Assembly: GCA_009192285.1 (NCBI GenBank)
Contig: CM018604.1
Span: 5,303,746 to 5,367,745, forward strand
Reading direction: 5' to 3'
DNA length: 64,000 bases
From: Morchella semilibera
Lineage: Eukaryota; Ascomycota; Pezizomycetes; Pezizales; Morchellaceae
Numbering within the stretch: the stretch's first letter is position 1; each line of letters starts with the position of its first letter. Positions 776 through 63,200 of this stretch are shown here, piece by piece. The notes under the pieces were generated by a model that was not told the DNA's origin, ran no database searches, and was given only the letters and a program-made list of their open reading frames with translations. Made by a program: the position numbers and the translations under genes.

Positions 776-2590
776 ATGGGGTAGATGGAGTTTAGGGGTA
801 TTCCTGTTTCTTTCTTTGGCTGCCTTTTTCTTTTGGGACATGTGGGTTATAAGGTGTAGATCATCATAAAAATATTGATGGGTTTTTTTTCTTATTTTCC
901 GTCACGGTCCTCGTGAACGGATGAATTAAAGATTGTGGTAGTAACTCAGCGCCCAGAATGACCGAGTGACAAATAGTGACTGACATATTGCCTTGGGGAC
1001 AGGGTATATAGTTAGTGTCTGTGTCACATGTGATACGGGACCAATGATTCCAGAAGCATGTAGGGAGAAAGGCATTAAGGGGAGCTCTAATCTTTCCATA
1101 GATAATGCCGGCCCTTAGGTGCTAGTAACTAAACATCCGAAATCACTGCATGATGCGTACATTTTGGTTTTATTCAGACCTCCCCCACTTGGTCAGTCTT
1201 CTTAGGGGGTGGATCGTCTGTTAAGCCCCATAAATCAACGTCCCGGGAAGGTGAACCGGGTCGGGATTAGCTGATACCCGGTTTTCTTACATGTTTGTTT
1301 TTAGCAGCTAGACGTGGACTAGTGGGGGTATATAGACCTCCTTGTCAAAAATCCCGGGACAAGCCCTGTAGCAGCTCGCGGTTGCGTTGTCCCAGGACTT
1401 TTGAACAAGAACTATACTACTGTTCAAAGTCTCTATATATAATTAGCCGGGACGCACCCGCACCGTTAATCAGGTTTAGGACATCTTCTGCCTAGTGGTG
1501 GTGGCCGTAGCTACCGGCTCTTGTTCTAGCTGAGCTCTGAGCAGGCACGAATGTTAGACCATCTACCAATAAAGGGTTCTGGTAAAGTTCAATAGATCGG
1601 CCCCGGAACCGGTTCTGGGGTTAGTAATAAACAAAATAAACAAGTTGATCCGCAGAGACAGCAGCCCCAAGAGGTATTCTGGAAAGGTTAGAGGTTGGTA
1701 ACAATGGGGAAGGGAGGGGAGGGGAGGGGAAGAAAGGACTGACCCCCTATGATACTTGAGCAGCATCTATGATGAGATAGGGGTACAGTATGAAAGAACG
1801 GAGTGAAATCACATAGACTACGGAATTCAGTAACGAATACCGAATGAAACCGGCACCAGAGAAAGAGTAATGTACCAGTAACTATTCTTACCGCGTTGCT
1901 AACGTACTGGCGGGAATACCGTGGTGATCCCGTCCCTCTTTCTGGTACTGTAGTTGTAGCTAGCAGAGGATACATGTATACATGTAGTACGCAACAAGTG
2001 AGGGGGAGTACTGTCAGAATAGGGAGATATCGACCTAAAAGATTGTGACCAAAGCAATATTGAAAGCTGTAGGGTTCGAGATGTCTGATGGGCGGCTGGT
2101 GAATGGGTAACATAAGGCGGTGTTGACGTTTGTGATGATTATCGAGGTGGCTGTTTCTGCTGGTGTTCGTGATGAAGGAGTAGAAGAGAACGATCTGGGA
2201 ATGGTTTAGATCCGCACCCCCCAATAAGAATCTTGGCTGAACTTTACTTTCTGGCAAGTACATACATGTAGGCCCAGGTGTGTGGATGGGACGGCGTGTA
2301 GGGAGTCAGAGCTAGAATGAGAGACGGAAAATGAGCGCTGCATGTAATCATCAGATATATACATTAAACGATTATATCTATCTATTTGTAACTTGAGAAT
2401 ACTTTTTAGCAATATCGTATCTCATATGGTACATACTGCGAGATGGGCAGACCCATGTCACCCGCCCGCGGTTTACATGTAGAGTCGAGACCAACACAGT
2501 GCCCCCGCGAAGCAAGGACATCCATCACACCTACAACAGCAATCATCTAACCAAGCACAATCGTGTCTATAACATATGAAATTCTTTTGA
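776..2590. other. Intergenic spacer, no gene supported
   Basis: This 1.8-kb spacer lies between two 3' ends. Open frames here have no recognisable composition or family. It holds one copy of the dispersed CGAGTGA-N6-RTGA motif (963-982) and several TACATGTA palindromes (two near 1972-1990, others near 2264 and 2474). Confidence 0.6.
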
Positions 2591-5895: not shown

Positions 5896-6212
5896 AGAGT
5901 GGTGAGGAAATCTGGGTAATTAGAGGGAAAGTGTGCACCAGATGTAGAACCCCGTACCAGAGTTAGATGCGATGCGAACGATTTACAACTCGAAAATATG
6001 ATGTAACTTTTAGTAATAATATCCCTATATGAATTAAAAAGAATAAGAAAGGAATCAAAAGAAGTACAGATCACAATCATAATTGAGCAGACTATCATCA
6101 TCACATAATCATCACCGCGCATCAAAGATGGTATCAACCATGCCACCAGCAAGCTATTGTACACGAAATATACAAACAGCGCACAAAAGAAGAGAAAAAT
6201 CCACAATTAGTA

Positions 6213-7550: not shown

Positions 7551-10429
7551 TGTGAGCGTGTGATTGATGAGTTTGGGGGGTGGAGTTGAATTGAGGTTTG
7601 TGAAGTTTGTAATGTTCCATGCACGAGCCTTGATTACCCTGGAATGGCTTGGCAGTGACGACAGAGCAGGGATTGTGGTCGAGTGAGCAGTCGTGACCAT
7701 GGTGTGTGCTGGGGTGCGTTATACTGATTAAGCGTATTGATCCAGCTCCCTTTGAAACTATAACGTGAGTAAGTCTGACCGCGAAAAGTTGTATAAGCAA
7801 TTGCAGTGAAAAACGGGACACTTTTCATCAGCTAAAACATCTTCAAAACAACTGAACCCACATTTTATGAAACCATACTCTTTAATCGAAATCCTTAAAC
7901 AATTCCTAGCCCATCTACTTTCGAGCTCGGGCAGGCTTAATTAAAGGGTCCTGGAATCATAATATATTATATCGGGATAATAGTTGAGACCGTCATATGA
8001 GGCTAGCATCACAACGCGCACAACACTCTGAAAAACAGCATGTCACCTGTAACGATACATGGCTGTATATAGCTTTCATAGACCGCTTGGGCGAGGAACG
8101 GCCTACTCCCAAAACTGATGACTAATCAATATATCCGAGTGACCGTTCATGATGGAAGGGCAATGGCATAACATCGAGTTATTTGGGTTGTCAAAAGTGT
8201 CGACGATCCTCAGTATATCCTACTGTAACAGGTCCCGTTTCTGTTGATCTACTCTGATAATTTCTTGTAAATTTGATGATTTTCAGCACCTCCTTTTGCA
8301 ATTGGCAACCCTCTCATAACTCGAAAACAGCGCACAAGTGAATGCCCTATGATCTGCTCGCCGTGCCTTGATGACAAGCCGTGAAAGTGCGCGAATTTCT
8401 AGACTCACACGGTTGCCTTATTGATGCAGGAGAGTCCCAGTAATTCCATCATAGATATGATCTAGTGGCCTTTCGGTAGGGCGGGTCTTTAGGGCCTTAG
8501 GTGCTGTTACTATCTCTCTCGTGGTTGTTTGTTGGAAAATGTCCTATTCAAATTCACAAACCTGACGTTGCTAATAAATTCTTACCTACTAAATTTTATA
8601 TCGATTAGTGACCCCCCCTTATATGTCCTCAGTTCGAGATCTCTGAGATAACACTCTCATTCTGGTTCCCCAGAGCGACCTGGCGCCTCGCTCGTGGGCC
8701 GGCCCTCACCTGCCTTCCCCTCGACAAATCCCCTGATATCTGTTTCCTGCGCCAGGGTCTGGACTCTGGGTGCGGGGCTGGGTGGTTCTTGGATGCCTTC
8801 CAGATACTGACGACTTGTCGCAAACAAACTAGCGTTGTCCTATGAAATAGTGGGAGGAGTTCCCCCCCACCCTCCGATCTTTTCTGTTGCATCAACATAT
8901 CTCTGGAACTCTTGTGAGCCTGGAGCCATGCACTCGTGCCCATCTGACTTAGTTATAGATTTGATCTCATTGTGGTTAGTGTGCTGGAATTTTCCGGGTA
9001 TGGCCAGTGTAGTATTTCTTTCACCCTTTCTCTGGTGAGTTTTCGGGTATGGGCTAGTCTTCTATTATGTACTGGATTACATCCGTTTTGAAAGTTTCTG
9101 TAATATGATTGGTCGGGCACGACCGCAGCTGGGGTATTTGACTAAGCACCCAATAACAGCTGTAGTAGTACCAGAAGCCCAGGGCTAGAACTTGATATCC
9201 ATACTTTAAAGTAGAGAAGCACCTATAACTGGCGGTCGCGAGGTGGTAACCCCTAGTCTCTGGCGCATCATCTGCCGAACCATACAGAGCACTGGCACCC
9301 AAGGCTAAAAAATAATTAAATGATAAAAAGGCCGGCAACAAAAAGACTTATGTGAGTGAGTGTCATCCCTCAAGAGCGTCGCTACCATATTGGGCATTCT
9401 CATCACTGCTCCCACCAGGGTTTGAACCTGTCGTGGTCATATGACGAAGCCCAGTGTATTACCACTAGGCCACGCCACGATGCTTTTGATTGTGTCGTTG
9501 TAGTTTATGAGCCCCCCATTTGTGGAAAGATCCTTTCCTTGGCAACGCATCAAAACCTGTGAACTGAATTGCATCACAGGGCAATGAAATGTCTAACTGG
9601 CAGGAACGGGAATTGGGGGAAGCCCCCCCCAAAGTTTTTTTTTAGGTCACAGCACCAGCCATGGGCCCCTGGACACCTTCATTAATCTCCTTTGTCAAGG
9701 ATCTTTTCTTAATACCCTAGGGTTCACGCCTATATAGGGATTGACCTTTTGACCCTTTTTGTAGGTGGGTAAAGTACACTGCCGGGTTCCAACAGGCTGG
9801 CTAGATCTAAATGTTTCTCGTGCATACCCTTTCATTAGATAGGAATAAAAAGCTCTCTACAACTTGAGCCACCGCTGAGTAAAACCTCGCTACCAAACAC
9901 CCAACACTACGTGCATTTACTAGCCTTAATCGTCGCCCACAGCCAGAAAGAATAATAGCTCCCTACGACTTCCAGATCCTGATCCGGTGCGCGGGGGCAT
10001 GGTCAAGTATATATTTCATACATGTATTTTTTGGAAGTTAATTATGAATAGGTGACAAAACTCCCAGGCTTGGGGAATTGAATGGGTTAAGGGTGCAGAA
10101 TAGAATAATTATTGACTCGAATTATGCTAGACTTATAACTTTGCACAACTTCATAGGCGACCCCTCTGTCTCATAAAACGCAATCAAGATCAAAGATCAA
10201 GCTCAAAACTACATACCGTTATACCGAGTGATGGCTCATGATACAGTCCCAAGTCAAATCTTATTAAGTATATACAATCTGAAACGCTAGGAGATTTATC
10301 AGAACAGAAGTCGTAAAATTCCATAATCATAATTACAACTTCATTTCTCATCACCATCCCACACAACCTACAACCATGGGTATAAGCACGGGAAGAAGCA
10401 AAAAAAAACACCAATTATTAGGGCCCTCC
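7551..10429. other. Intergenic spacer with SINE copy
   Basis: This 2.9-kb spacer has no credible gene. It holds a SINE (9320-9551) and two CGAGTGA-N6-RTGA motifs (8136-8155 and 10225-10244). Short open frames overlapping the SINE on both strands are by-products of the repeat. Confidence 0.6.
9320..9551 (-). mobile_element. tRNA-derived SINE-like element, copy 1
   Basis: About 230 bp on the minus strand, homologous over most of its length to 46338-46559 on the plus strand. Read 5' to 3' it has a head segment (GATGCGTTGCCAAGG, then GGGGGGCTCATAAACTACAAC) followed by a tRNA-like part. That part has an A box (TGGCCTAGTGG) and a B box (GGTTCAAACCC, from the complement of GGGTTTGAACC). A unique tail ends in a short T run and ATCATTT. 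The acceptor-stem halves do not pair, so this is not a functional tRNA. Internal Pol III promoter boxes plus dispersed diverged copies are the hallmark of SINEs. Confidence 0.7.
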
Positions 10430-17945: not shown

Positions 17946-20935
17946 TGGCGCCTGTTCAATTTTTGATTTTTTTTTAAAATATAAAGGAGACGTCTTGGCA
18001 CATGTAGGGCATGTATCCTCGATTATCCTCGGTGCTCTGAGGAGAACAGTTCCTGCATCCCTAGCGCCATCTGGAGTTTGGTCTTGGCTCTCAGGCTGAA
18101 TTATAGGGTCCCATAATCGGCGAGGATCGCAATAAAAACATGCAGCCCTTTCTGTAGATTCGCTAATATTATGTAATTAGAGCTAGTAAACTCACACTAC
18201 CCTCGTTCCGTCGGCCATTCGCCCACTACCGCCCCAAAAAAACACTTTGTCCTGGTTATAAGCCCCGAGATACTGTAGCGAGTACTGGGGTTGGGACGTC
18301 AACTGTCAGAAGTTACGGCCGTGTCCCTTAATTATAGGACAATGTCATGTCAGCAATAGAGGCTTTCAGGAAACTCATGCAGAGGTCTGCCCTTAGCACA
18401 TTGAACTATCGACAAACGCAGCAGCAGACCGAAAAATACTCGAGGACGGAATATTTAGCATTAAGTACATGTATTTATCAGAAAGTGACATGTCAGCTGC
18501 AGAAGCGGACGCAATTTTACCTGCATGAGTTTCCCTTTCACTTTGAAAATTCGGGTCAACTGAAAGCCTCTAATGAGAGAATATCATTTACAACCAAAAA
18601 GATTTCTATTTCCACCAAGCCCCGAAGTTCACCTTTTTCTTTTCACACTCACTGCCCTGTCCGATGCCTTACATGTTAGTGTTAGTGTTATTTTTTTTTA
18701 GCCCTGTCCCGTATTTCCCAAATGCCAGCACGGGGGCTTTTCCCAACCCAGTACTCATTACAGTGCTTGTATACTATAAGTACCTAATAGGGGAACACAT
18801 GCGAACTCACATGGTTCAGCAATTGGATGCCTGAAATCCCCAGAGCTGAAAAATTTTTTTTTACATATAAACCCCCAGGTCAGTCTGCACTGTGTATCTT
18901 CCTTCTTTCCCCATTACCTATCTGCTCGTTATTACTGCCTGTCCATTGTTCCCCTCCTCTTTTTTCGGTTGTATTGATACTAACATGTCTGATATATATA
19001 GCTAGCTAGCTATACCCCTTGTTTATGGGAAGAAAGGGGGCGGAGGTTTGATGATACTCAAGCTAGCTATCGGTGTTCATTGCATCCTCAACGCAATGGC
19101 TCTGATCAACTCATACCAAAGTCCCCTCCTGTGTGGGAGATGGAGATTCAATTCCAACCCATGCATTCTTCACCTGAAAATTCCACAAAACCCTGAATCA
19201 ATTCCAACTCGGTACCCCAGCATGACAAGCACATAAAAGTTCGTACTTCATTGTACTTCCCCCCTCGCATTGATTAACACTATACTTACAGTCCCATATA
19301 TAGAAAAGACAAAGTGTTTGGGTACTTGGAGAGGTGTTCCCTAAGCGGCGATTTTGTGGCGGGGGCGCTCGGAGATCTATCAGCTGGTGAGTACTCGTTC
19401 ATCTCTTCCTCCGGGGACTTTGGTATCGGAGCGATTCGAGCAGATAGTGTTGGGGCATCTATTAGTTATATATATTCGAATAAATGAACAAGCGCCGCTT
19501 AAATACTTGCCTCATTGCGACCTTAGTGACTCGGGCGTGACTGATCCTAGTCAGCAAGGCTTCCTTCGGTTCTTCGTGTGGTTTCTGCGGCTCCGGCGCA
19601 TAATTGTTATATATATACTCATTGATATGGCTATGTTAATCGTTCTATACATGTATGCAGGGGTAGAGACGTATGGGGAGTTCAGTGCTACTGTTACTGG
19701 CTTGACGCGAATTCTGACTTGTATTTTCCATCTACATACACCGATTTCCATTATATGTAGCCTTGCGTTTTCCCTCCTAGCTTCCCTCCACCATATATAC
19801 GGAGATCCGCCGTCCAAACCGACTTCCTTAGCAAGGCACGGGAGAGCTAGAGCGATTCTCGTGTTACCCCTTAAACTCTCTATACTTTCGCTTTTCTTCA
19901 GCTTTAGATATAAATGAATTATCTAATCAACCAATTGATCAAATTCCTAGTCTCACAATTAATGAATTAAACAAAAAAAAACTGCTAGTCTCTGTATGGG
20001 TCGAGTGATAGTTCATGACTATAAACATTTCTACCTTCAATTAGACAGCGAAGACGCCCGTTCCCCTTGAGTACGTTCAAGGGGCTCGGATACATGTATC
20101 TACAAGATAAATAGGGCTTCCACTTTCTGTTATCTACTTGAAAGAAACCAGGCTCCAGGAGGGGTCATCTCCGTGTGGCTGGCTATTCGATCATTACACG
20201 GGATCGATATTTGAATCCGGAACGGCAATCGATCAGAAAACTCTCGCGGAAAACAAAGGACGCAGCCATTGTACCTGAATGCTTAGGGGCCCGGTCCTAA
20301 GGTTTGTTGATCCCCCCCTTTTGGGAGGTTTGGCAGGCCTCGTCTTGGTTGTTCCTTAGATTATGAATAAATAAAAACAGATAATCGTTAAAACGAAAGT
20401 CTGCTATTTCCTATCTAAGATTATAAAGTACTTAGTAGGTACCATGAAGAAAGAATTAAATTTACGGATACTTATCGTCTGCTATGGGCCTTGCAATTTA
20501 GCGGGTTAGATTAACTAGAAGGTGTTTTATATTTAACTCTCTATGCTAGAGGCTGGGTCGATTGAATCTCTTGTACTCGCCCTCTACTCATTCTCTCTAG
20601 GCTTTAATTAAGCTTTTTTATTTAAAATTAAGAGGGTCGATACACTAGCACACTCTTCCAGAAAGACAAGGATCGTTGATTATACGGAAACTCACCAAAT
20701 GTCCAGGTTCTGCATATACACTGCGTACTACGTAACAAGAGGAACTAGAACTGATCATTCAGTCCCATGAGATACTACACTACAAGATCCAAGCGTACGT
20801 AGTCTTAGGGGGAACGCCTCATCTTGAAAGTCCTCCCCCTCCCGCCGAACCCCGTACCCACAAACATAACATTATCTCAATCTCACCCCCAATCAGATCA
20901 CGCTAAGAACCACGCTAATCCTCAAATTGCCAAAC

Positions 20936-21316: not shown

Positions 21317-23557
21317 CGGTTTCCTGTAGAGGACTGAAGGAACACGGCGTTTTCTATCCTCGGGAGAGTAATTGAGCTCTTTGGCTTTGGGCCTTGATAG
21401 GTTGTCCGGTCGTTAAGGTAGGTTGATGTCCCTAGGGCCGGGGCCTAAGTTATGAAGAAACCAATGAACTGACCAGGACAATGTACCAGTTAATAATAGC
21501 TATTATATCCTCATAAAATCTCACTCGGATGGAGGCTAATCCTCTAAAACTTTAAAAAAGTGCTTCTAGCTCTAAATAATAGAATAACAAAGTTGCAGTC
21601 CCTAATTACGTAGCTAGTCAGACCTCTTGATTCCTTTATCTGTGCCTTAGCCAATAAATGCCCCTAGCACCAGTCCCCATTTTAAATTCGTCTCCAGCCT
21701 CGTGTCTATATACATACAACTCGTGAAAGAAATTTATGGAAGAGACTGTATGTACATGTACATGTAGTTACCGTTCCCTTAAGCATGAATCCGATATCGA
21801 TCTTAGCTACGTAGCTACAGATACGTGTAATACTCAAAGCAAGCATACCATACATGTACATGTAGTCATAGTACACATACATGTATGTACAAACATGTAG
21901 TTACATACGTTTACAAACTTTAGGGTAATGTATATAAATTTTATGTGTACTCCCCGGGCTTAAAAGTACATGTATGTGTACATGTAGCTACTTCATGTAG
22001 TGACACGTTTTGAGGGCTCAGTGGCCACAATCGAGTTCACAACGTGTCTGGAGTTAGATATGGCCCCTCTTTCTATAAATTGAACCTAAATCTCTCTCCA
22101 GTCGACCATCAGGCTCTTCTCTTGTCTTCATCCTTTGGCTTCAATCGTTGGGACGGAGCAGACCTAGATTATATCACTGCTTTATTTGCTGTCTTTCTGC
22201 GTTTAGAAGTTGCTTACTACCTCAAATCACTTTATTGCCTTCTTTTCTCTTTCTTCTCTCGTGTTCATGGAGCTAACAAGAACTCTTAATATAGCTTCAC
22301 CCTGAAAATCGAAACCCAACCGAAATCACCGAAGAGTTGAGAGGCTTCGTTGATTTCACGGCAACCGAGTTTGACAGGAACCCGCTATTGGGAGGTTCTT
22401 GATTCACCCAGTAAAACTCACATGAAATCCCCAGGGGAAGGGGGGAATGACACCCCGCTGCCAGAAGCGCAAGATCATATCCCAAAAGTTGGTATTCCCT
22501 TTTCTTCTGATATCCTTTCTAATGCGATTGACCCACAGAAAAATCACAAATTTGGATGCACCTCTTTGAGAATCGTATCGGGCTACATTTTGGTGGTGAG
22601 ATTATCCCGGTTTAATTGAGCACTGCAGCGAGATGAGTACGGCCTGAAGTTCTGTTGAAAGTAGGTTTGAATGTTTCTTTACAGTTTTCTTTCCCGGTTC
22701 TTTTTATGGTTTAAGGTGGTAAGCAACATCTAGAAGATATCTGTATCTAGTTAGATCAAATCTATATCCAAGAATTCGGTTTTGCGGTTTGCCATCATGT
22801 GTCATGGCCTGTAATTGCGTAATTTATGTACTGTAGCTTACCTTAATTAGTTATTACTGTATTTTTTTTTAAACATGCTCACTTAAATCAACAAACTGTT
22901 GTCCCTGACACTTTCCCAAGCCCGAGGTGTTCCTTGTGTAGGCGCCTTACGTATCCTAGTGTCGAGTGACCGCATATGACGGGTATCTTCATGAATGATC
23001 ACTCGTGATGGCAGCACATGGTCCGGGTTTGTAATACATGAAGACGCATACTTTGAGGCTCGATATAGATACATCAAGTTCTTTATTCTGTCCTTATTAT
23101 CCTAAAAAAAGGCCAGTACTCTAATCCCAGGGAGGGAACAAATAAAGGTCTCGTACAGGCAGCTATAGACTCTAGACACCCGAAGAGCGGAAACACCGAC
23201 TCCTGGCATTTAGGATTTCTGCATATGCATATATATCGAGTCACCACCCCTGGGTATGCAGCTCCGAGGATCGGGTTATACGATAGTAGGGGGGTTTCGA
23301 GCATGGCTGTAGTTTTCATGGGCAATATTTTGATCTCTCTAGCTTGCTACTACTGAAACAAATGCTCAGGCATAACTGGCGTATGGCTAAGGCCACGGGG
23401 ATATAACAAACTCCGCACTACGGGAGAAGATGTGGCCCAAATGCCCGTCTCTCACGTCCTGTACATGTACATGTAACATCGTGAAGGGGTCTAGTACCTA
23501 CATGTATCTACCTACTTTAGTATACATCATCTCCTCCACTACGACCAGCACAACACA
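21317..23557. other. Intergenic spacer dense in TACATGTA palindromes
   Basis: A 2.2-kb spacer without supported genes. A cluster of seven TACATGTA palindromes lies at 21750-21990, and three more at 23460-23510 just upstream of the next gene. An inverted pair of the CGAGTGA motif lies at 22963-23005. Confidence 0.55.
22963..23005. repeat. Inverted pair of CGAGTGA-N6-RTGA motifs
   Basis: A plus-strand copy (22963-22979) faces a minus-strand copy (22987-23005), so the 43-bp stretch begins CGAGTGA and ends TCACTCG. It is the only place in the window where two copies sit together. Confidence 0.5.
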
Positions 23558-25350: not shown

Positions 25351-26173
25351 TGGTGTTATAGGTAGCTGAATTGAGTTGATAGGTATTTTGGTGGTATCTA
25401 GAGCTCGGGATCGATAGAGCTCGGAGCTGCGCTGCAAGATAACGATATGCAGCCAAGAATAGATTATTAACCGAGGGTTCCGGGTCCTTGAATCGATGCG
25501 ATAAACAAAATTGCTATGGAGAAACTCGGAGGTAGGTTGCGGAGACCTTCATATAGATACATGTAGCTATATGAGAGAAGGAGGAGTGACAAAAAGCCAT
25601 GATGATGATGATGCTCCAATATTGTGAGCGCTGAAAGGTGTCACGAGGTCGGTCTTATCAAAAGACATGAGACTATCGTAAGAGTTATGTTGCGCTCAGT
25701 TACCGGGCCCGACGAGATCCAGGCAGGGTAACCCGATCAACAATAGCATAATCTAATATATAAATAGATATATCTCCCTTGGTCATCTGTCTCAAATGCG
25801 ATCTTAACACTGAGCGCTCCTGGAGGTTATCTGGCGGGCGGACCGTACCTGAATTGGTCATAGGACGACGCCCCTCCGGTGATCGATCCAACAAACACCG
25901 ATGTTGGTACCATAAAACCAGGGGAGAAGGTGTCTCACCTCCATCGAGTGCCCCGGGCACGACCCGAGAGAAGAAGAGCTTTATAGCAATAACAACAAAG
26001 TAGTTTTCAGGCTGGGCCACTGACGCCTTGTGTACTAGTTAGTAGAGTCGAGTGATACACCGTGATGGACACCCAGCAGTCCGTTACCCTACGTCGAGCA
26101 TATTACCCCTACTGGTCCGGGACCAATCAGAGTACTCCCGGCTGACTAGAGTACGATCGATACTTCCGGGAGC

Positions 26174-31966: not shown

Positions 31967-31998
<32 letters not shown>

Positions 31999-33911: not shown

Positions 33912-36075
33912 GGTGTGCGGCGACGGTGACGACAGTGCGTTGGGGGGGGGGGGGGGTGTTGTTGGCTACTGTAGGTCGTAGTAGGTATGGAAGTAGTGGT
34001 TGTGGCTGATGCTGTTACTGCTGCTGCTGCTGCTTCTGCTTCTGTTGGTGTGTGTGGGGAGGAGGGACGTGTTGAAGGGACTGGACTGGACTGGACTGAC
34101 TTTCAGGTCAAGTCAAGTTCAAGTCAAGCCAAGTCAGGCTCAGGTCAACTCACGGGCTTTGGCTAGGGGGGGGGGGGTGGGGATGACGCGACTTGACCAC
34201 GCGCTAGGTATTGATGATGATTTGAGGATGAGAAGTGGGTGGGGGGGAGGTGGGTTTAGGACCTTAGGGTGACGTTCAGTCGTTGGGGGGAAGGAGGGGG
34301 GGGAGAGAGGAGGAGGAGAAGAAGAAGGGAGCGGAGCGTGGTTTGAACGAGTGAACGAACAAAAAAAAAACGGTCGTGCGGAAAAAGGGAAAGTGTATGA
34401 ATGAAAAGCAGAGAGAGAGAGAGAAAGAGCTGAGAAGGAAATAAGGGAAACCCCCCCAAAAAAATAAAATAAAAAAATAAAATAAAAAAATAAAAAAGCC
34501 GAACAAAACGACGAGCTGGAAAAATAAAAAGAGGCTTCCATTGTTTCGTCTTAGGCGGTGGACCCGGCGATCATAGTATAACAATGTTTCATGTTGAATC
34601 AAGTCCTTACCGCACGGCCTGCTGGCGGGGGGTGGGTTCCAGAGAGAATGAAGAAAGGAGAATCAAACGACGCAGCAGCAGCAGCAGCAGTAGTAGCAGC
34701 GGGGCTGGCGGCGGTGGCGTGCGTTGGCGTTTGATTGAAAACTAGATTCTAATATCATATCCTTTTCTCTCTTCTCAGATCATTGCGCTCTTCGAGTTGC
34801 ATAGAGAAGGGGGGAGTTTGTGAGGGGGGTCGAAATCGAAGAAGAGGGATTGGGGGGGGGGTGGGAGGTGTCGTCAGAATATATTAATTCCGGTGCATGG
34901 TGGAGTTTGGATGGGGGCGTTGGGAATTATTATATACTACTACCTACCTCCTACTCTACATGTATGTACTGCTTTGAGCGTCCCACATGCGCGATGTACA
35001 TGTACCTCCGCTTCCATGTACAAGTTCCTAAATATAAACAGTGACCCCCATACATACATTGCGAGTGAGAGACCGTGACAAATGTGGCGTTGAACATTGG
35101 TGTAGCTACTTGACTTTCTATGGTTGAGGATTTTGTGTTCCTGGCTGTGGGGGTGGGGGTCTGTCTTCCTGTCACGTACTGGCAAGTGTAGTCGTATATA
35201 CTGTAATGTTCGTAATGTTTTAAAATCTTTTGTCTGTGAATACATGTATGTACCCAGGGGAAACATACTGCCTCTATATAGCTTCCCCTGTAGGCTCACG
35301 GCAAGGCAAGGAATAGATATCTTAATACACGGGTAATATATACCGGGAATATACTCTGCTCTACAAAAGTCACAGGGGGGGTGTGTGTGTGTGGAGAATG
35401 AGGAAGGAAGGAAGGTAACCTCCAACTAATATTAAATGTATCCGGGTAACATTTTGACATGGAAGAGAGGGAGAGAGAGCGAGAGAGAGAGGGAGCAAGC
35501 ATGTGCTTTCTTTTTTACTGCACCCATCGGGTGATGGCACCCAGAAATTGTTTTTGTGTTTGATGATGCGGCTCGAGTGACAGGTGTTGCAGCTTGCGCG
35601 TGCGTGCGACTTTACCGATCTCTCTTTTTCACACCTTCACTTCTCCCCCTACCCTACTACTTTACTCCTCCTGGAACATTCCTCACAGACACCCATCATA
35701 GCTTACGACGACCACAAATCAATCCAGTAAGGGAACCGTGAGAGGGAATCTTGAAATACTGAAAGCAATATTACTTTACTTTACTTTACTTTTACTTACT
35801 CTTGGCAACGGTCAACTACGTGCAGCCACATAATCATCTCCTTCTTTCTACGTCTACGCACACTTCCTTCGTCCACATCCCATACCTACTACCCCCACCA
35901 CCACCACCATCACAATTCCTCAACCCTATTCATCAATCCCCCTTACAATATATACCGATAACAATTTCATCCGGAGATCTGAAGCTCCACAGATCTCTTC
36001 TGCGATCTTCCCCTCCCCTCCTTTTAATCCCAACATCCCCATTGGTTGTTAATTTATCCCAGCCGTAACAGCACA
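33912..36075. other. Intergenic spacer, simple repeats and promoter of the KRE2-like gene
   Basis: 2.2 kb. It holds (CTG)n/(CAG)n short runs (34018-34040 and 34672-34690), several G8-G17 runs (33939-33955, 34166, 34850), TACATGTA palindromes and one CGAGTGA-N6-RTGA motif (35062-35081). The last 250 bp, rich in C/T/A, are the likely leader of the mannosyltransferase gene. Confidence 0.55.
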
Positions 36076-37441: not shown

Positions 37442-38859
37442 AGTACTGGTCTGGTATGGTCTGGGAAGGGAAGGGGGGCGTTATTGTCGTTTTCTTTTCT
37501 ATACAAAAAAAATATATTTTAGTAGTGGCCCGTGGATAGTTTGTAAGTGCCTATGCATAGGTGCAGTGAATGTTAGGGGGAGGGGCTGTAGACAAAGATT
37601 AGGACGGGGTTTCGTGTCATAATAACGTTATTTTCTTTTCCTTTTATCCTATTTTTTCGGTCATAGATTGAATGACATTTATGATTTATCAAAAGAAGAA
37701 TGTCAATTCCATCTGACTGAAGAGTTGCTTATATATACCGGCAGTAAGTATTTAGGGCGGGTGGTGACGGTAGTGGGGGCTGCAAATTAGGAGCCGGACC
37801 GGACCGGAGTGTTACCCGGGGTGAGCGAGTCTGGACACGGAAACACACTGTGATTAGATAGACCAACCCTCCATCCACATGCCCCCCCCAGCCCCAGCCC
37901 CACACCACCGCAATCATTGACCCAGGCTTGGCATCCGACTCCTGACTCTTTACGCCGGGGGGTCAAGACAGCGACATGGAATATCACTCGGTGGTGCCAA
38001 GCATGCCAAGCCATACCGGCGGGTCTCTGAGTGATAAGTATCAGAGTACGAGTCCTAGTATAGTGGTGGTGGGGAATGTGTGTATGAGGCTGGTTCCGGC
38101 CTTAGGACCTGGATACCCGGCTGCATGTCACGATGCCCTAGCGGTCCTTGCTTGGGGTATGTATGTAGGGTAGGTAGGTATAAACCTCCTCTAGTATACC
38201 GCCGTGTAAGTTGGGACTGTTTTGTGTTGTAGACCAGGCACAGAAGAGGTACGTGACCTCTTTGGGAGTGGGTTCTACTTCGCGCCGTCGATCGGGTGTT
38301 GGGTGTGGGGGTGGTGTGGCCCTGCTTATGGGATTCTCTCGAGGGTTTGGACAGGGTGGGGAGGGGGGGGCTGGACCTTAGGTGGGTAGGTGGGTAGGTG
38401 GGTATATTATGTCCTAGCTAGGCTCTCGACTTTAAGCTTTTGGACGATGGGCACGGGGGGGATAGGGGGGGCGTGGGAACAGGATCTGGATCCGGGGTCG
38501 CTTTTGTAGCTACATTGTATCTACATATCTATCTGCCTACACCAGCACACACACACACATATCTACATAAATAAATACGTAGATAACACCGGCGAACGAG
38601 TACCCGCCGGGGGATTCTACTTCTGCTGTCTAGCGTTTTGTCACCACATGGGGGCCGAGTGAGAGTCTGTGAAGCGGTGGTGGTAAATATACGCCGTAGA
38701 TCTACGGTTTCAATGTCACTGTCCCATATCACCGCAGAGGAAGAAAGAGCAGGAAGAAGAGGAAGAGGTAGGAAGTGGTAATTACATGTCCCTAACACAA
38801 AAACAAAAAAAGGCCCCAAAGCTACACACGACAAAAAAAAACAAAAAGACAAAACCCCG
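37442..38859. other. Intergenic spacer between convergent genes
   Basis: 1.4 kb with no supported gene. It contains a GGTGGGTA-type tandem stretch (38385-38405), a CGAGTGA-N6-RTGA motif (38656-38675) and an (AC)n run near 38549. Confidence 0.5.
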
Positions 38860-44484: not shown

Positions 44485-44930
44485 AGAGGGGGCGTGTGTA
44501 TGTAGATATCTAAATAGTTTTTATTCCACACCTGTCTAGCAAAGCGTAGCGTGACCATCGAGTGCAGTACAAGAAACATTAGACCCCCCTCCCACCCAAA
44601 TATGTAATGGGGGGTTCACCTAAAGTCTGAAGAATCACCCCTGTTTTACAGAAAAATCGGGCCGATCAGGTTATGCTAAACACCCGCCCCGGTCCATGTC
44701 CCGCCAAGACCCGGTGCCAATGATCAAACAGTCACCTTCCGAGGCATCACAGGATCGCACTCGCACCGGCCGGCCTGGCCCTTCCGCCAAGCTTTTAGGC
44801 ATCCCGCCGTGGTGCGGGGTGTGGGTGGTTGGTGGTTGGGGGAGGGGGTATAATAACCTCCTGCTTCTTCCTCTGCTCCTCTTCCTCTCCCTCCCTTCTT
44901 CAGCATTGGTTCGTTTGTGTTTTGTATATG

Positions 44931-45115
44931 CTGCTTGTCTTGTCTTGTCCTGTACTGTTTTGTTCTGTACTGCACTGCACTGTTTTGTCCTGTCTGTACT
45001 GCACTGTTTTGTTCTGTCTTGTCCTATACTGTTTTGTTCTATCCTATACTGCACTATTTTGTTCTGTTACTGCACTTTTTTGTTCTGTCCTGTACTGTAC
45101 TGTTTTTTTCTGTCC
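44931..45115 (+). repeat. Pyrimidine-rich minisatellite (TGTTTTGTCCTGTACTGCAC-like)
   Basis: About 185 bp of diverged tandem units built from TGTTTTGT, CCTGTACTG and CACTG. The long open frames over it (Cys/Phe/Leu/Tyr-rich) follow from the repeat and are not genes. Confidence 0.85.
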
Positions 45116-45916
45116 TATCGCGTGCTATATACCTCTATACCCCATCCCCGCTGTCCCGTCATGTATTATTACCCCCCACCCACCACCCCACACCCACCAC
45201 TGTCACCACCCACTAAACACCTCTCTACAGACTAATTTAGTCCACCCCCCCCCCTCCCCGGCAGCTAATGGCGCCAACAAACCGGAGGAGCAGCAAGGGG
45301 ACGGGCGAGAGGGGGAGAAGCAAGGGGACGGGCGGGAGAAGAGGCGAGGACACGGGCTCTTCACTGAGTCACGGTCAGCAAGCAACAACAAACAACGGGG
45401 CACCAGCACCCCCCACGCACTGAGTTTCGAAAGGGACCAGAGCGGGGGGGGGCGTCGGCGCCCTGCACCAATCACCAGTATCACCGGCCGTGCTGCGGGC
45501 AGTGGCGGCGGCGGACTAGAAATGGGGAGGGGGTGGAGGCGGTGGAGTGGCGGTGGAGGAATAAAGTACCCCCTTTCTCTTTACTTTACCCTTTACCCCT
45601 TTATTTTACCCCTTTACCCTGCGATGGTGGGCTAACGAGGCGGGAAGCAGAAAAAAAATAATTCAAAAATCCAAAAAAAAAAAAACAATAACCCAAAATC
45701 TGGATGTCTTGATGCTGTAAGCTTGGGACAGCGTTAAGGAGGGAGGGAGTGTCGGTTAGTTCCTCCTTTTTTTTTTTTTTTTTTTTTGTCTACTCTTGTC
45801 CTTTTGCGTGGGTGGGGTATATACATTCTTCTCTCCTTTTCTTTTTTTTTTTGCCGTGGTGGTGGGGGGGGTACGTAGGTAGTCTAGATACACTGCAATA
45901 ATATCATGTATGCAAG

Positions 45917-45942: not shown

Positions 45943-46337
45943 TGTAGCCGTCATAGTGCCACGTTAGACCATAGCTCTCGAATCGGTGATTCTTCGTTCG
46001 GCCTTTGTGTGTGCATATGATTGGAGCGAAGCACAGTTAGTTAAAGCCGACGCTCGAACCCCCGAGTGACGGCCCATGAACCACGATGTTTCCTGCAGCC
46101 GCGTGCATGCATGGACTGTTGCGGGCTGGATGATGGTTGGTGGCGACGTGCTGTGTGCTCAAATAGATCACACCAAGTGGGGGGTGGGCGCGAGGCTAGG
46201 TGTACTTGCCGGATTTTCAAGTTAGGACGGTTGCCACCCAACTTTTGGTTACATCTCGTCCTAAACTTAAAAATTTGGCAAGTATATTGGTCTCGTACGA
46301 GCAGTGGAGGCCTAGGTGTATATACATGTATCTACTT

Positions 46338-46959: not shown

Positions 46960-47915
46960 CATACATGTATGAATCGCGAACACTTTTGAAATGTTGTCGT
47001 GCCTAGTCAATACTTCCGTCACCATCAACTAATAAGTTTGTGGGGCGCAAAAGGATGTAATCTAGTATATAGTGGACTGGCAGCAGATAGTCGTGAGGGC
47101 GTGGGGGGGGGGGGGGGGCTTGGTACTGATGTTCTCGCTGTAAGGATGACATCTGTGGTCGTATCCCATAAACCGTCGATGCTGACATGATGCATCCCTC
47201 ACGTCTAATACTACAGTACCAAAAAGGGGGGTGTGGTCACTACGGTATTCTCGTTGGTACGCTAGCAATGCGGTAAAAATACGGTATCCGTACAGTACTC
47301 TTCCTCTAATGCCGATTTAATTCGGTATCTGTCACTAAATTCCGTAGTCCTATGGTAGTGATTTCACCCCATTTTTTCATACTGTATTTATGTAGTTAAC
47401 CATTACATTTAAAGGTTAGGTTAGCAAGTACCTGGCTAGGCTAGATTCGGATCGATATGCTGGCAGAGTCTGTGGAATTCTTAAGCCATTGGCGGGTGGA
47501 GGAAAGACAGGTAAGTTAGTAAGTCGGTAAGTATGTGCTACTGTGGGATTTGGTAGCATCACAGTTCAGGGTAAGTACTGTGATAGGTTTGTTTCCTCCC
47601 TTTGTTTTTTTTGTTTACAGTTTCTGGCGCGGGTCGGCCTGTAAGAAACAGAATTTATTGGCGCTAGCCACCTGTTAGCATTTTAGGAAGGTTTACCATT
47701 TTTTCGGTCCGGGCCCCACTACAGCAAGAGACGTCTGTAGCTACAACGTAGTGTGCATGATAGGGGGCCCCCCGTTGGAAACCCAAGCCCAGAAGCAACC
47801 GAGTGATGGGCCGTGATGTTGCAGGGTAGTGGTAGATAGGTCTCCCGCCCTAATCCCACGGACAGGCCGGGTAATATATAATTCGCTGCATGTAGGTACA
47901 TAAATGTAGCTACAT

Positions 47916-48783: not shown

Positions 48784-50500
48784 CGCTGAGCGGTGCCCAT
48801 CACTGAATGAATACACATTTGCTCCTGGTCCCAGAACTATATATTTAGATAGTCTCTGTTGCCTCCCTGACCGTTTTTTAAGGACGCCTGCCGCCCTTTT
48901 TGCCATCACATAGTCACTTAGTCCCCTGGCAATTTCTGTCCTGGCGACTTCGAAGAAGAAAAAAAAAAGTTTTAAAAATCCTCCTCAATTCTGTTGGAGG
49001 TTTCCCACACACTGGGAATCCGAAGATTTGTGTCTGCCTGGATCGAAAGTCCGAATGCGCAAAAACAACCTGAAGTTAGCCGGTAATTCCCCCCATCGAA
49101 AGACAGGGAGATACAAACCCGCTTTGGCGCGAATCACTCACGCCCCGACAAATAAAAAATAAAATAAAATAAAATAAAAAGTCAGTAGTTCCATATCCTG
49201 TGTATGGTGGGGTTTGGTGGCTAACTTGCGTGGTGGTCAATAGAAAAAAAAAATGAAAAATTCTGGATGCCTCCTTGCCCCTAAGGTCGCAGCGATTAAT
49301 GCTTGGTGGAGGGTAAGTTTGCGATTTTTTCTTTCCGTCTTTTTGCTCCCTGACTGGCTGGTTTTATCTCCCCCTCTTCTATTCCCTTAATTGCGCGCGC
49401 GAGTGCGTGTGTGTGTACGTGTGTGTGGGAGGTTATTCGGATTAGATAGTTTTTAATTTATTGATACTTGTGCCGAGCAAACGTTAGCAAAATTTAACTC
49501 CCTTTTAACTCCCCTTAAATATCAATGAAATTATCCTTGTGCAAACCTCTCTGTTTGGTAGAACCAAAGATCACTCGTAGGTTAGACTTTCGGCAGGTGC
49601 GAGTGATAGTCTATGATGCATCAACCCTACCATTCTGCAACTATTTGAGAGAGCTAGAGTGCCCGACTACATGTAACCCCGCATACATTTCCATAAGCAC
49701 AAGAAGCTGTATAATAATTTCTACTTGCTGCCAGATACGTTAGCAACTCCAATAGCATGCATAGCTTTATGCACTCTTATTATAGATTGCCGTGGTAGCA
49801 TATCGTTGGGCGAGCCGGTACGTACATATCACACCATGGTGCCCGATACACACATGTACATCATACACACGTATCCACCCTACTGGCCAGCGATACCAAC
49901 TTTAACATGGCAGACCCTAATTAAGGCTTCACATCGATACGGGACCCCCGTGCATATCGATCCGGGAGGGGGGGTCCTTGACACGGTTTCTAAGGATTCA
50001 AAGTGAGGGTTCTTGCTATATATATAAGTACATGTATGCAGCGTATACCATGTACATGTAGTACTAGTATACGTCGCCGGGTCAGTAAATACATGTACAT
50101 GTACTTTTTGACCTCCCCACACCCCCTCTTCTTTCCCCTCATCCACTACATGCATTATCGATCTACCATATCACCATGACCGTCCATCGGTCCATCCCCC
50201 GAACGGAAGTTGCTCCATCGGCCCCTCCCTCCTCTGAGGTACGTCCTGACCGTGATGATAAGGCAGCCTATTTTAGCTGTAGCTACTAACCCGTTAGGTT
50301 TAGGTATCAACATCATGATCACCAGTCTTTCAGTTCACCGCAGAATGTTACCTTAGGTACATACCCCAGATCGATCCCCTGCTCTTGAGGAATTGCTAAC
50401 CATAGTGACCAGAGCTTCCCCCCCTCCTTTTCACCACACGATAGCTGCTGGTGGTAGTAGAGGAGGGCCCAGATTGCTAGCTAGCTTCGTTACATACGAT

Positions 50501-50579: not shown

Positions 50580-50658
50580 CTGGATGAAGTGTAGTTATAT
50601 GGTACCTGTGCCAGCCCAGTCTGGATCCCAGGAAAAGCCTATCTGTTGGTGATAACTA

Positions 50659-50783: not shown

Positions 50784-53475
50784 TTTACTTCACGAAAGCT
50801 TATTTGTTACTTATTAACTCTTATAGTCATCAGCCACGAATTCATTGTAGCAATGGCTCCATCAAGCCGTCATGCTGGGACGCGCATTAATGGGGGGGGT
50901 TAGTTACGCCGGTGAGAGTTGGATGCATATGATAATCACCCATTCCAGAAAATATGTGAGTTTTTTCGTCCTATAATTCATGTTGGTGAATGTGTTGGTG
51001 AATGTGTCAAATTTAAAACTGGTAAGATTTTTTTTTTTTTGCTCGGCTACTAGGCAGAATGCGGTTGTCCACCTAGACTCATCCAAGATGGCTGATATTT
51101 CTTTCGATATCGTCAGCTCAAAGCTTAGCACACTTATAGCTTACAGCAGAACGTCTAGACCCGGATTTCACACAGCCGTTTGAGGTTACGGACCAGTTAT
51201 GTACGGTCGAGACACATTATAGACTTGCTCCGGATAAGCAGCTATGTGCATACATATACACACCACCTTACATGCTTGGGACAAATATCACGCGCTTACC
51301 CACGGTCTAGTATGTAGTCTCAACACGAGTGATCGCCCATGCACCACCACGCGTTTTCCTCCCAAGACCTCGACAATCGGGTCCGTTCCTACATTTAGGA
51401 TCCCATTCCCCGTACCAACTTGCATCACAATTACGCTTCACGGATTTCCAGATATATTTCAAGCGGCCCAAATCTCAATATCTGAATCCCACCCACACAC
51501 CAACCTACCTTACCTGGTCGCCGCCGCAGACTCTTGTCGGCGACTGCGATGTCGATGGGGCAAAAAAAAAAAAAAAAAAAAAAAGAGGGAGGTCTAGACC
51601 TTTAAAAAGCAACAACAGATTGTAACTGCTACCATTAACCGATTTTTTTTATGCAGGCTACTACCTACTCAACTAACTCCCATCACCAATTCCCACAAAA
51701 ATTGTCAAAGCGTAGACAGCAGGATCTACTTTGCACCAAGGCTGAAAGAAAAAAACATGGATTCTTCCTTCGCAGCGCTTACGTAAAACAGGAAAATGGC
51801 TACACTACATATGTACGGCGAGATAACCTGGGCCATGAGCGGGAGTAACCGTTCGGGGCTGCTGCAGAGAATAAAGAAGTATAATAAAATAAAAAAAAAA
51901 TAAAAAAGAAAAAAGAAAGAAGAAAAAGAAGAAGAGAAAAAGAAGAAGAAGAAACGACGTTGACGAATCCGCGGGGGTAGACGGAGAAGGGAGAAGGAGA
52001 AGGAGAGAAGGGTGCGAACACCGAATGGTGGGCTAGATTGCATAACCCAAAATTGCAAATGAGACTAAAATAACACGTGTGTTATCACATTGTGCCACGG
52101 TTCCGCATTCAGGGGTAGTTTTTTCTCTCTCCGGAGTTCGGAGAACATGATGTCAGACGTCAATGGTGGTGGATATATACCGAAGAACTCTGCATGCATA
52201 TATGCGCATGTAGATGTGGTGCTGATACTCAAAGGAGAAGAATGTTGTTACTGACTGGACTCTTTAAGCTTAAAGGATCGAATCTCACGCTCTCTACGAA
52301 ACACCTTTGTCACACGCCAGCGTCACCCTCAAAGATATGCATCAACAGGGCAACGCCACGAGTGACAGGTCATGTTTCAAACTCACTGCAGGAGATTCTC
52401 ACTGTGGTCCGATATGTACGCAAAAAAAAAAGAGCTGTTATTGTTGATTAATGATCATCTTTAAGTTACTAAACTCACATTATAAAAGTATGTATATCCA
52501 GAGTTGCAAAGCACTTATTTTAAATCAATGAAAACACACACAAAAAAAAAAAACCCAGAGGAAAAAAGTTAGGAACTGTAGTAACAAAAATACACTGGCC
52601 ACAGTATATCCAAATAATGATGACTCCCGGCTCCCCATGCACCCCCCCCCCCCCCCCAATCCCGCCAGCCAGCCAGCAAATGTTCAATCACCAGTACACT
52701 CCCGCCCCATACAGAACCGAAAAGAAAGAAAAGACTTTTAAACTCTCCCCGAGTTACCCAACCAGCCGGCACACACCCCGCAAAATTTCCATAGAATGCA
52801 AATATATGAAAATAGAAGAGAAAAGGACAAAACAAGTAGAAATAATGATAAATTCAACCCACAATATTCACTCCCCTTTCCCACCCCATCCCCGCCAAAA
52901 AATGCCCCCCAGACAAAAACCCCAGAAAACCTATTCGATCGAGTTTGCCAAGATAAAAGAAAAAGTTCAAGGAAAACGACGAGCCCCCACCGGTATACCC
53001 ACCAAACCAACTACAAAGAATACAGAAAAAAAAGACAAATTCCCGTTCTAACCACTTTTATACCCGTGCAACCCATGCCACTCCTTCCCGCAATGACAAG
53101 ACATGAAACAGAAGGAATAAAAGGTGTAAAATATATTCGTTTCCACATCGAGAATCAACAGCCAGCATTTTATGATTTTTGTTTCCTTTTCTCCTTTAAA
53201 TATAGAGAAAGGAAAGGGGAAGGAGAGTTTGATAGAGAAAGGATACTCATTTTTTTTGTTTTTGTTTTTGCCTATAGCCACCAACACCACCCAAATGCCC
53301 AACCAAACCAACCGGTTTCGCTCGTTTGTTCGTCCCAGTACAGCCGTTTAATCCCGTTGTGAACAAATTAATTTTTGAGGAGGATTTCCCCATGTATCAT
53401 CCCACTCACACACCAACCCAACTCCAGATGTCCCGTTTACCCACCCAAATCCCATTGTACAGAGAGCCTTTTTGT

Positions 53476-58400: not shown

Positions 58401-58582
58401 CCCTCATTCCCTTTTTAAAACATCTCTCCCCTCTTCTTCATCTTTGAAACTTTCTCCTCCATTTTAATTCTGGCCGTTGCTACATCTGCTACTTCACGGC
58501 CCGTCCTCAAATAACCTCTTACTTTACTTCATTTCATCAATCCCTACTCTAGTCTTCTCTTCATCACCTCTGCCCCTCTACA
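55495..58582. other. Intergenic spacer between divergent genes
   Basis: 3.1 kb between the Nrp1-like gene and the F-box gene. No gene is firmly supported. An ATG-less open stretch at 56140-56374 encodes a hydrophobic segment (see rejected items). The last 250 bp before 58583 are C/T-rich, a likely leader. TACATGTA occurs near 56941, 57042 and 57869. Confidence 0.5.
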
Positions 58583-60256: not shown

Positions 60257-63200
60257 TGTCCCGGTTCCCTTTAATCTTACTCGCATTTTTTCCTATTTCC
60301 TTTTTATGTTTTTCGTATAATTAGGGTGGTTAGGTCTTTCATCTGGGAGTTATCTTTTTCCGCAAATTTTTCCACTATTGATATCATTGCTTGTCAGGTG
60401 TTTTTCTTTGATGCATTTTATGTATTGATTTGCTGGGTGGTTTTGACCCTTCAAATATCGTTAACCGTTCCTATCTTGCTCATCTGCCGTGTTTCAAACG
60501 CAGACATATACCATCACTCGCTGTTCTCGCATTTGGAGATCTGGCGTGTTTATTTCCGCCAAATATGTAGCCGTTTACATATCTGATATTCTTTTGTAAA
60601 AAATTAGCCTATTACATGTAGGTACTGATATAATCATAGTCAAGGTTAACTCGATGTTCACTACATATGCTTACTCCTACATTGCACGAATTTGAGGCCA
60701 GCTAGGTATCCTACCAGTTACCAATACCTAACTTGAAATACATTTACCTATTCGATAATTCAACTTAGGGTAGTGATATGTTAATTACATGTATTGTACG
60801 ACTTTGGAATGGATCATATTAAATTAGACGAAAAGTTTCTTGAAACAGCCCATCGTTGGTTATTATCCGGAGGGAAGCTCTTGGCTCGCCGCGTCTATAA
60901 CACGCACGGATATTTCCAACTGTGTTTGTTTAATTTACAATTCAGGCCAACATTTTTTTTTTTCAAACCAAGCTTGGTGGTAAGAGATGACGGGTTTTTT
61001 TTTATGCCACCATGCCTTGCGGGTAGGTCCGCAGCGGCACGGGAACAAATCGTTTTTAACCTTATTACGTCCGAAAAGGTGAGGGAGGCATGGGACGAAA
61101 AGCAGTGGTTCGTTTCATTGAGATGCAGGAAGCCGGACTCTTCAAGTGGGGTGTGAGAGCCCGTGGCACAAATAGCCCTTGACTTCCGATGCGCCTTCCA
61201 CCCCACCGGGTTCCGAAAATTAGTATTTTGAAAGTGCCCACATATATACATGTATGTACTTATGAAAATTGTTTGCCGGTAGCTATAGCTGCAGCGTTTA
61301 AAAGGGTCGTTTACCTAAGAGGCGACCCGGTTTTTGGTAAATTTATCTTGCGCGATACGCTTCGGTCAGAGTATCAAAGTGATACCGATGAGCATGAGGT
61401 GTTCACGGGTTCTTGCATACAGCAGATTGTTACTCTCGTTCCATGCAGTTACCATTTTTTGTTTTGTTGTGTATGTGTACTGGAGTGCACGCATGATGAA
61501 ATTTGAGCGATGGAATAAGATTCATCTTCAGGAAGTAGTATTAAGGTAAGTATGTACATAACCGCCGTCGCTTGCAAGGAAGGAGGAGATCGACAAACAA
61601 AATGATCGTCGATGTTTCAGATAGGGTTAGGGTATGGGTTCATACGTCTATTTTTATTGTTGCCGAGTTTGCTCTCCACCCGAAAGTAAAAGTTAACAAG
61701 TTTGGCTTTTTAGGACTGATCGACCTATTATTTTTTGGCCATGTGGCAGAAAGGGGCGTCGACTAAGAAGATATCAAAGTTTTTTTTTTTTTTTTTTTGG
61801 TCCTGTCAGATATGTAGGTACCTTGTACTAGTACGTCAGGGTACTTGCCAAGCCCCTTGAATCACTACCGACCAACCAACCGGCATATCTAGAAGAGATT
61901 CATCGACCCCGTCTAGACTACCATTCAAAAAAAAGTCTCTCTCTGACTGTGCGCCTGCACTCAAGAGGGTCTTCTGGTGGATAAAGCCATTTTCCCGCTG
62001 CATCATCGTGAGTCTTTAAGCCATTCTTCACTGGCAGAGAGTAAACATCTTCAAATAAGCACATACGTACTCTTCTATACAGTCATTGTACTACCTATTG
62101 CCACCAGGTTTAAAGGCTTTTTTCGCTCTCTTTCATACGCTAGAAGCAACATGTGGCCTCCCATTGGATCTCGATGCTCTATTACTGAGGTAGTTTACCC
62201 TGCAGGGTTAAGTCAGAGCTCGAGTTCAGGAGTAATTCGCCTAACTCCCGCCTCTGCTTTTTCCTCTCTTTTTTTTTTTCGAAGGAAGATGACATGATGG
62301 TGAAAAGATGCCGGTTCTTAAAGGTAATGTGACTAGCCTCCGTGCAATAGTTTGCTCTTATATGGGTTAATTTTCAATTGGAAATACTTAAAAGTGCAAA
62401 AATCCTTTCAGCGAAGGGGGTTTTTCTTTGGGTTCTGAGCTATAATGATTGGTCAGGTTCCTCTTTCCTTTTTGGTGTTCACCGAACTTTTTGCTGTTTA
62501 CGCCCTGAGCGCTGCCGACCAGTCATTGTAAGCTTAGCAGAGACCAGATCTACTTTCTGCAGCTGGCTAACGAAATAGGTTTTTGGGGTGCAAAGATGCT
62601 GCTAAAGATTGCAGTAGCAAGATCACAACTGGACTAGTCTGGCCTGGGATCACGCACATATGCTCTGCTACTGCGGAAGAAAGTTTTCAACCCAGCAGAA
62701 GGGTCTATAACGTACATGTACGTACCTGGAGAGTTAACTGTGGCTTATGTAAGAGCCAAGCGTTATGAATCGAGTGCTTAGCTGTGATAGAGCTTGATGG
62801 GATCTTTTGACACCGTTCGACTCCATCCTGGGACGCAGGTCGGGGTTTTTTTTTCTACGAGCGACTCGTACTTGGCTTTTACGCCACTCGGGAGGTTGAT
62901 ATTCTCGATTGCTATATCATGCGGTCATTTAAATGCCTGTCATTGCAATTGAGCCTGACGCAGGCCATATGTATAGGCTTGAAATGGACGAAAGCTACAT
63001 ATTGATCTTCATACACCCAGCCTTTTTTGCTACCGGGCGAACACAGCATAAGCATATTTGCCAAGCGAACTACCTCGATGTCTTAGAACCATACAACCGA
63101 AATCAGTAATCACCATACTCTGAAATAATAATTTCTGGAGTTGTTGATAAATCCTTTTTCCGGGGGCAAAATCGATCGGTGGAGGTGCCGGTGGTTGGGC

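Follow-up and report, generated by a model that had tools for sequence, protein, structure and literature searches.

The window analysed here, 64,000 nucleotides of contig CM018604.1 of the morel Morchella semilibera (positions 5,303,746 to 5,367,745), carries a dispersed 17-bp word, CGAGTGA-N6-RTGA, with 11 core positions. Exact matching on both strands found 14 copies, 12 on the plus and 2 on the minus strand, whereas 100 shuffles of the window contained 0.09 exact copies on average and 2 at most. Up to one mismatch being allowed, 26 copies were found against 1.69 expected. The first-pass annotation of this DNA had listed eleven plus-strand starts and a minus-strand copy ending at 23005, all of which are exact; the list was correct but incomplete, the copies at 7680-7696 (+) and 21511-21527 (-) having been overlooked. 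Its near-matches at 51326 (+) and 60504-60520 (-) each differ from the word by a single mismatch, at the last base. The exact sites are given below, followed by one-mismatch sites.

963..979, plus strand: exact site CGAGTGACAAATAGTGA, intergenic, convergent gap
7680..7696, plus strand: exact site CGAGTGAGCAGTCGTGA, inside the open frame 6213-7718 (minus strand), upstream, by 130-146 bp, of the probable start codon (7550)
8136..8152, plus strand: exact site CGAGTGACCGTTCATGA, intergenic
10225..10241, plus strand: exact site CGAGTGATGGCTCATGA, intergenic, the 3' end of an MCM5-domain gene being 197 bp away
20002..20018, plus strand: exact site CGAGTGATAGTTCATGA, intergenic
21511..21527, minus strand: exact site CGAGTGAGATTTTATGA, intergenic
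22963..22979, plus strand: exact site CGAGTGACCGCATATGA, intergenic, first of a head-to-head pair
22989..23005, minus strand: exact site CGAGTGATCATTCATGA, intergenic, second of the head-to-head pair with CGAGTGACCGCATATGA
26049..26065, plus strand: exact site CGAGTGATACACCGTGA, intergenic
35062..35078, plus strand: exact site CGAGTGAGAGACCGTGA, intergenic, divergent gap
38656..38672, plus strand: exact site CGAGTGAGAGTCTGTGA, intergenic, convergent gap
46063..46079, plus strand: exact site CGAGTGACGGCCCATGA, intergenic, convergent gap
47800..47816, plus strand: exact site CGAGTGATGGGCCGTGA, intergenic, convergent gap
49600..49616, plus strand: exact site CGAGTGATAGTCTATGA, intergenic, convergent gap
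37974..37990, minus strand: one-mismatch site, last base T
51326..51342, plus strand: one-mismatch site, last base C
52359..52375, plus strand: one-mismatch site, last base T
60504..60520, minus strand: one-mismatch site, last base T
44747..44763, minus strand: one-mismatch site, A to C at base 7, a change enriched genome-wide
62771..62787, plus strand: one-mismatch site, A to C at base 7

Thirteen of the exact copies are predicted to be intergenic, as expected from the previous claim that none lies in a coding exon. In the gene models only the copy at 7680 is at odds with this claim, being inside a frame modelled as exon. This site is nevertheless probably part of the 5' leader or promoter of a GYF-domain gene, because it lies upstream of the presumed true start codon at 7550. 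The protein read from this start contains the GYF domain; the choice of start is a reading of the open frame.

The genome-wide count that the first-pass annotation had proposed as a check revealed a strong enrichment. The assembly of 56.76 Mb (56,756,124 bases, 23 contigs) contains 8,470 exact copies, 4,226 on the forward and 4,244 on the reverse strand, against 44 (15 + 29) for the reversed word used as a control, a ratio of about 190. Together with the window shuffles, this led us to reject a chance origin of the word. The density is about one exact site per 6.7 kb. That most copies lie on one strand, as had been noticed, is true within the window but not for the genome. The total of 8,470 may be somewhat inflated because the scaffold pairs C9/C10 and C12/C13 seem to be duplicates of each other in the assembly; they would amount to some 6% of the assembly if the whole pairs were redundant. 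The members of each pair have nearly equal lengths, and the sampled sequences were near-identical (3,000 of 3,001 and 1,959 of 1,966 aligned columns), with single-base gaps as the only differences. Each is thus probably present twice in the assembly.

The word is sharply delimited. We used a 279-kb sample consisting of the window, positions 140001-340000 of contig C1 (7,341,407 bases) and five flanking loci. The constant spacing described previously was confirmed there: 70 matches had a spacer of six bases, none a spacer of five and none a spacer of seven. CGAGTGA occurred 97 times, 70 of them within an exact site, and each single-base variant of the word was present in 0-6 copies, compared with 70 exact ones. 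Genome-wide, 5,227 one-mismatch copies were counted against 1,469 for the reversed control word, on which this background estimate depends. The excess corresponds to 0.45 per exact copy, far below the approximately 32 per exact copy that unconstrained drift would give, and a simple equilibrium estimate implies a scaled advantage of about 4.3.

The remaining variants were not distributed evenly over the word. In 26 of the 35 one-mismatch copies of the 279-kb sample, the mismatch was either at the last base, whatever the change, or one of three replacements, namely T for C at base 1, A for G at base 2 and C for A at base 7; for the changes at bases 1 and 2, CpG decay could be another source. Two variant types were also followed over the whole genome. 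The transversion A to C at base 7 gave 326 copies against 55 for the control, whereas permitting G-to-A transitions at both base 4 and base 6 raised the count by 226, with a rise of 142 for the control. The A-to-C variant was commoner in the sample (6 per 70 exact sites) than genome-wide (326 per 8,470). Position-specific variants of this kind, base 7 tolerating C in place of A and bases 4 and 6 hardly accepting A in place of G, argue for recognition rather than for the decay of a recent burst of copies. Indeed, a recent neutral burst was rejected on two grounds: the six middle bases are diverse, and the variants include more transversions at base 7 than transitions at bases 4 and 6.

Base composition was determined on 214 sites, comprising 100 listed plus-strand sites, 100 listed minus-strand sites and the 14 of the window. 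In this set the core was fixed by the search pattern, so that the contrast between core and middle rests also on the variant counts. The first middle position was never A (150 T, 35 C, 29 G), the second was A in 115 sites, the third could be nearly any base, and positions four to six were rich in C and T. A pyrimidine bias before RTGA, as had been noted earlier, was indeed present, the last two middle positions being C or T in 171 and 183 sites, respectively. The R position was A in 136 and G in 78 sites and was followed by TGA. The loosely preferred middle can be written B-A-N-Y-Y-Y, with some positions statistically dependent on each other, and the 35 one-mismatch copies showed a similar preference. 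Outside the 17 bp, each of the 40 positions on either side carried less than 0.2 bits (70 sites). The TGA parts of the two half-sites start 10 bp apart, that is, one helical turn. Taken over exact matches only, the site holds about 23 bits, which is an upper bound; if the one-mismatch excess is spread evenly, about 20.7 bits are obtained. The fraction of guanine plus cytosine (GC) was flat around the sites (0.44-0.48 in 50-bp bins over 300 bp on either side).

The flanks had been described as unrelated, and their alignment bore this out for the most part, with one local duplication and one repeat family as exceptions. Comparison of 69 flank sets (300 bp on either side) yielded 15 alignment rows, which were due to overlapping windows of neighbours, to two matches of 20-21 bp and, for two rows, to one local duplication on C1. 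Against the 264 kb for which gene models were made, five of the 69 had short matches elsewhere (7 rows of 25-98 bp). In the local duplication, at about C1:49.6-56.1 kb, the versions of the site have different middles, in an ambiguous alignment. Pairs of identical 17-mers were more frequent than expected (38 against 20.2). Nine groups of identical 17-mers were chosen from the C1 lists, and eight of them had flanks unrelated within about 300 bp; the ninth was a repeat. That repeat and the dependence between some middle positions do not explain the excess fully. The repeat is dispersed, gave 51 match rows in the genome and carries an exact site. Fourteen copies were aligned, 12 picked from the 51 rows and two from which the family had first emerged; the exact word was present in 12 of them, and two had C to T at the first base. 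One further observation on this family is that one of its copies had many single-base insertions, which may be sequencing errors. A mobile-looking repeat thus carries the site without accounting for its thousands of copies.

Placement relative to genes was analysed over 264 kb with models from a self-trained hidden Markov model, which lack untranslated regions and cover this one species. This sequence holds 64 exact sites, of which 63 could be placed; the remaining one stands first in the C1 block, thus without left neighbour, and is intergenic. Sixty of the 63 were intergenic, two lay in predicted introns and one was the site in the 5' extension of the GYF-domain gene. Three of the 60 intergenic sites (8.1 expected) were no more than 400 bp from the 5' end of a coding region, and ten (7.5 expected) were as close to a 3' end. 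By gap type, 7 sites fell in the 42.7 kb between divergent genes, 15 in the 29.1 kb between convergent genes and 38 in the 101.0 kb of tandem gaps. No orientation rule with respect to genes could be made out, 10 of 28 tandem-gap sites matching the gene strand. A rule of one site per gap was rejected as well, since at least one site was present in 31 of 59 gaps, with 30.3 predicted by a Poisson distribution.

On a larger scale, 99 of the 187 neighbouring pairs in C1:1-1,097,700 had the same orientation, compared with 93.3 on average after shuffling (p 0.22). Among seven distance bins only that of 1-2 kb looked skewed, with 26 of 34 neighbours on the same strand. Close pairing was absent (7 neighbours at less than 200 bp, 6.4 expected). 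A stretch of 138 kb (C1:635,606-773,910) had no exact site. A 10-kb sample of it contained several diverged repeats and open frames which, read by eye, resembled gag, reverse transcriptase and integrase of Gypsy-type elements; the palindrome TACATGTA, described below, was absent from this sample. The stretch is possibly a pericentromeric cluster of diverged, nested Gypsy-type retrotransposons. Two arbitrary 10-kb tiles, on C3 and C5, had no exact site, which is unsurprising at one per 6.7 kb.

Two functions at the RNA level were rejected. Folding of the 64 sites gave no sign of structure (mean z -0.32), which speaks against a structured RNA. The suggestion of an A-box-like element for RNA polymerase III (Pol III) did not survive either: the window had no transfer RNA (tRNA) gene and no Rfam match, and none of the 64 sites was followed by a B-box in the next 250 nt in the 3' direction, so that a tRNA or other Pol III element was discarded.

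A gapped 4+4 word scan of 178 kb of predicted spacers returned, in its top 70 rows, mainly the 17-bp word and TACATGTA with its overlaps and relatives, besides an A/T-tract word. TACATGTA is a palindrome, with TAnnTACATGTAnnTA as its extended form, and is commoner than the 17-bp word: the genome contains 22,206 sites of it, and 3,723 of its reversed control. It occurs at 38 places in the window, for example at 23462-23475 (two overlapping) and 23499-23506. Of 152 sampled sites, 151 were predicted to be intergenic. Only one of 147 was no more than 200 bp away from the 3' end of a coding region, where 9.9 were expected, and divergent gaps contained 41 in 42.7 kb compared with 18 in 29.1 kb of convergent gaps. 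No constant distance between the two words was detected; the median was 358 in the window, where random placement gave 737 with a standard deviation of 333, and 678 in the C1 block, where it gave 668. Among the literature matches listed for TACATGTA as a fungal motif, two concern motifs of Phytophthora infestans. Elsewhere in the window, GC reached 0.61 in 40001-44000, and low-complexity, repetitive open frames, at 44624-45635, followed a gene for a pyridoxal-phosphate enzyme (PALP). Outside it, at C19:2699587-2699758, there is a fragment resembling 5.8S ribosomal RNA, below the family cut-off and in surroundings unlike ribosomal DNA; it was the sole 5.8S match reported in the assembly.

We propose that the word is the recognition site of a DNA-binding protein with two half-sites and is kept by selection, a reading to which we assign a probability of about 0.68. 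The earlier guess of a protein-binding site is thereby supported by the genome-wide enrichment, mostly in spacers, by the sharp and position-specific core, by the graded middle and by the mostly unrelated flanks. The putative protein would be abundant, very selective and sequence-specific, and its role would probably be general-regulatory or chromatin-organising. It would read the half-sites CGAGTGA and RTGA, which share TGA and would face the same side of the helix because these TGA parts are exactly 10 bp apart. Purifying selection on the core would then maintain the site at thousands of intergenic places, where it would act regardless of orientation and not specifically from promoters. Since neither an orientation rule nor a promoter preference was observed, a spacing, insulating or nucleosome-organising role would fit better than gene-specific activation. 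The protein, its role and the selective maintenance are what we infer from these sequence patterns.

Several points weigh against this proposal. Sites in tandem gaps below 8 kb were uniformly positioned (n = 28, Kolmogorov-Smirnov p 0.95) and the scatter over gaps was Poisson-like; such location-free placing is not predicted by selection acting locus by locus. Furthermore, the sites hold about 20.7-23 bits whereas 13.2-13.7 would suffice to find them, a surplus of about 7.5-9 bits. Finally, the material consists of the sequence and homemade gene models of one genome.

The random scatter and the information beyond need would also be compatible with a function independent of position or with a drive resembling conversion. 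Each intergenic holder of the word, read by a putative two-half-site protein, would then gain a similar small advantage or conversion bias, whatever its place. Variants of this idea are a function of density only, such as genome-wide partition, pairing, repair or an uptake signal, and a biased conversion of near-matches wherever coding permits. The uniform positions in tandem gaps, the lack of an orientation rule and the balance of strands genome-wide would all be accommodated, as would the Poisson scatter and the surplus of information. We nevertheless regard this family of explanations, taken jointly, as rather unlikely. Predicted coding sequence amounts to about 80 kb of the 264 kb and contains only one of the 64 sites, which is probably in a 5' leader; the 138-kb stretch on C1 shows that not every non-coding stretch acquires copies; and ordinary selection on a protein-binding site explains the sharpness without any drive. 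We know of no conversion- or uptake-like drive for such a word in fungi.

Core and middle would also suit a promoter element of the usual kind, belonging to a single transcription factor whose regulon is unusually large. This we consider improbable in view of the deficit of sites near 5' coding ends, of their lower number in divergent than in convergent gaps and of their uniform distribution along tandem gaps. A site for the origin recognition complex, or another element of replication origins, would be intergenic, free of orientation and perhaps somewhat denser in convergent gaps, as is the word. The flat GC around the sites and a density of one per 6.7 kb, which is high for replication origins, make it a still more improbable candidate. 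The idea of relic ends of a mobile element, to which excision footprints or other fragments may be added, is largely refuted, even though one repeat family has the exact word in most of its aligned members. Similarity between flanks came down to the few cases listed above, identical 17-mers mostly sat in unrelated surroundings, and neither the identical middles of a recent spread nor the decayed core of an old one was observed.

A binding site kept by selection thus being our preferred explanation, the roughly 8,500 exact copies provide a direct handle on the putative factor, and the word could be used as bait for the protein. Any set of morel genomes could show whether the sites keep fixed places or turn over freely. 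Should they turn over freely and yet stay sharp, locus-by-locus upkeep of regulatory words would not apply to them. If the position-free alternative were true, a eukaryotic genome would maintain a genome-wide word irrespective of place.

To our knowledge, no CTCF-like or Abf1-like genome-wide factor has been described in filamentous ascomycetes, and none appeared among the literature matches listed, which is not proof of absence. Among the matches listed for the core word there was no title on a fungal motif, and combining the core, its reverse complement, Morchella, Pezizomycetes and over-represented motif gave no match. Pezizomycetes and Morchella are unmentioned in PMC10985990. The genome paper on Morchella crassipes (PMC7014384) gives 11,565 predicted genes and 15.34% repeats; the word 'motif' is absent from its main text.

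Eleven binding words were counted in the 264 kb: those of Reb1, Abf1 (two forms), Cbf1, Rap1, Tbf1, Sap1, CCAAT, GATA, the CENP-B box and the CTCF core. None was clearly enriched, the counts being near or below expectation and the largest excess that of Tbf1 (119 against 97.6). Budding-yeast Abf1, Reb1 and Rap1 have many stringent, mostly intergenic sites, and that of Abf1 consists of two half-sites with a fixed unspecific spacer. The morel word resembles them in stringency and location, and Abf1 also in architecture, but differs in sequence, in its lack of promoter concentration and in the bits it carries beyond need. The words of these yeast factors and of Cbf1 were near background (Reb1 21 against 22.4 expected, Cbf1 80 against 79.0, Rap1 4 against 2.5, Abf1 44 against 35.3 and, in its strict form, 4 against 2.6). 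For the ABF1 family (PF04684) there was no match in the morel genome, but equally none in any of 14 control genomes, so that this result is uninformative.

The CENP-B box, which is bound by tandem helix-turn-helix domains, is likewise 17 bp long with two separated half-sites. Its core TTCG-N4-A-N2-CGGG occurred twice (1.2 expected), and the morel word is spread over gene-bearing spacers instead of forming part of satellite arrays. CTCF and other animal insulator sites are long, polar, dispersed and intergenic and are bound by one factor; the morel word shares the first four traits. However, the CTCF core was found twice where 7.1 were expected, and no preference for convergent pairs was seen in the counts on C1. 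The DNA-uptake sequences of Neisseria and Haemophilus, of which we know no fungal equivalent, are tied to bacterial transformation and exist in many near-perfect copies with unrelated flanks. The morel word similarly combines a great excess of exact over near copies with mostly unrelated flanks, and its position-free interpretation would be close in logic to that of bacterial uptake, Chi and KOPS words.

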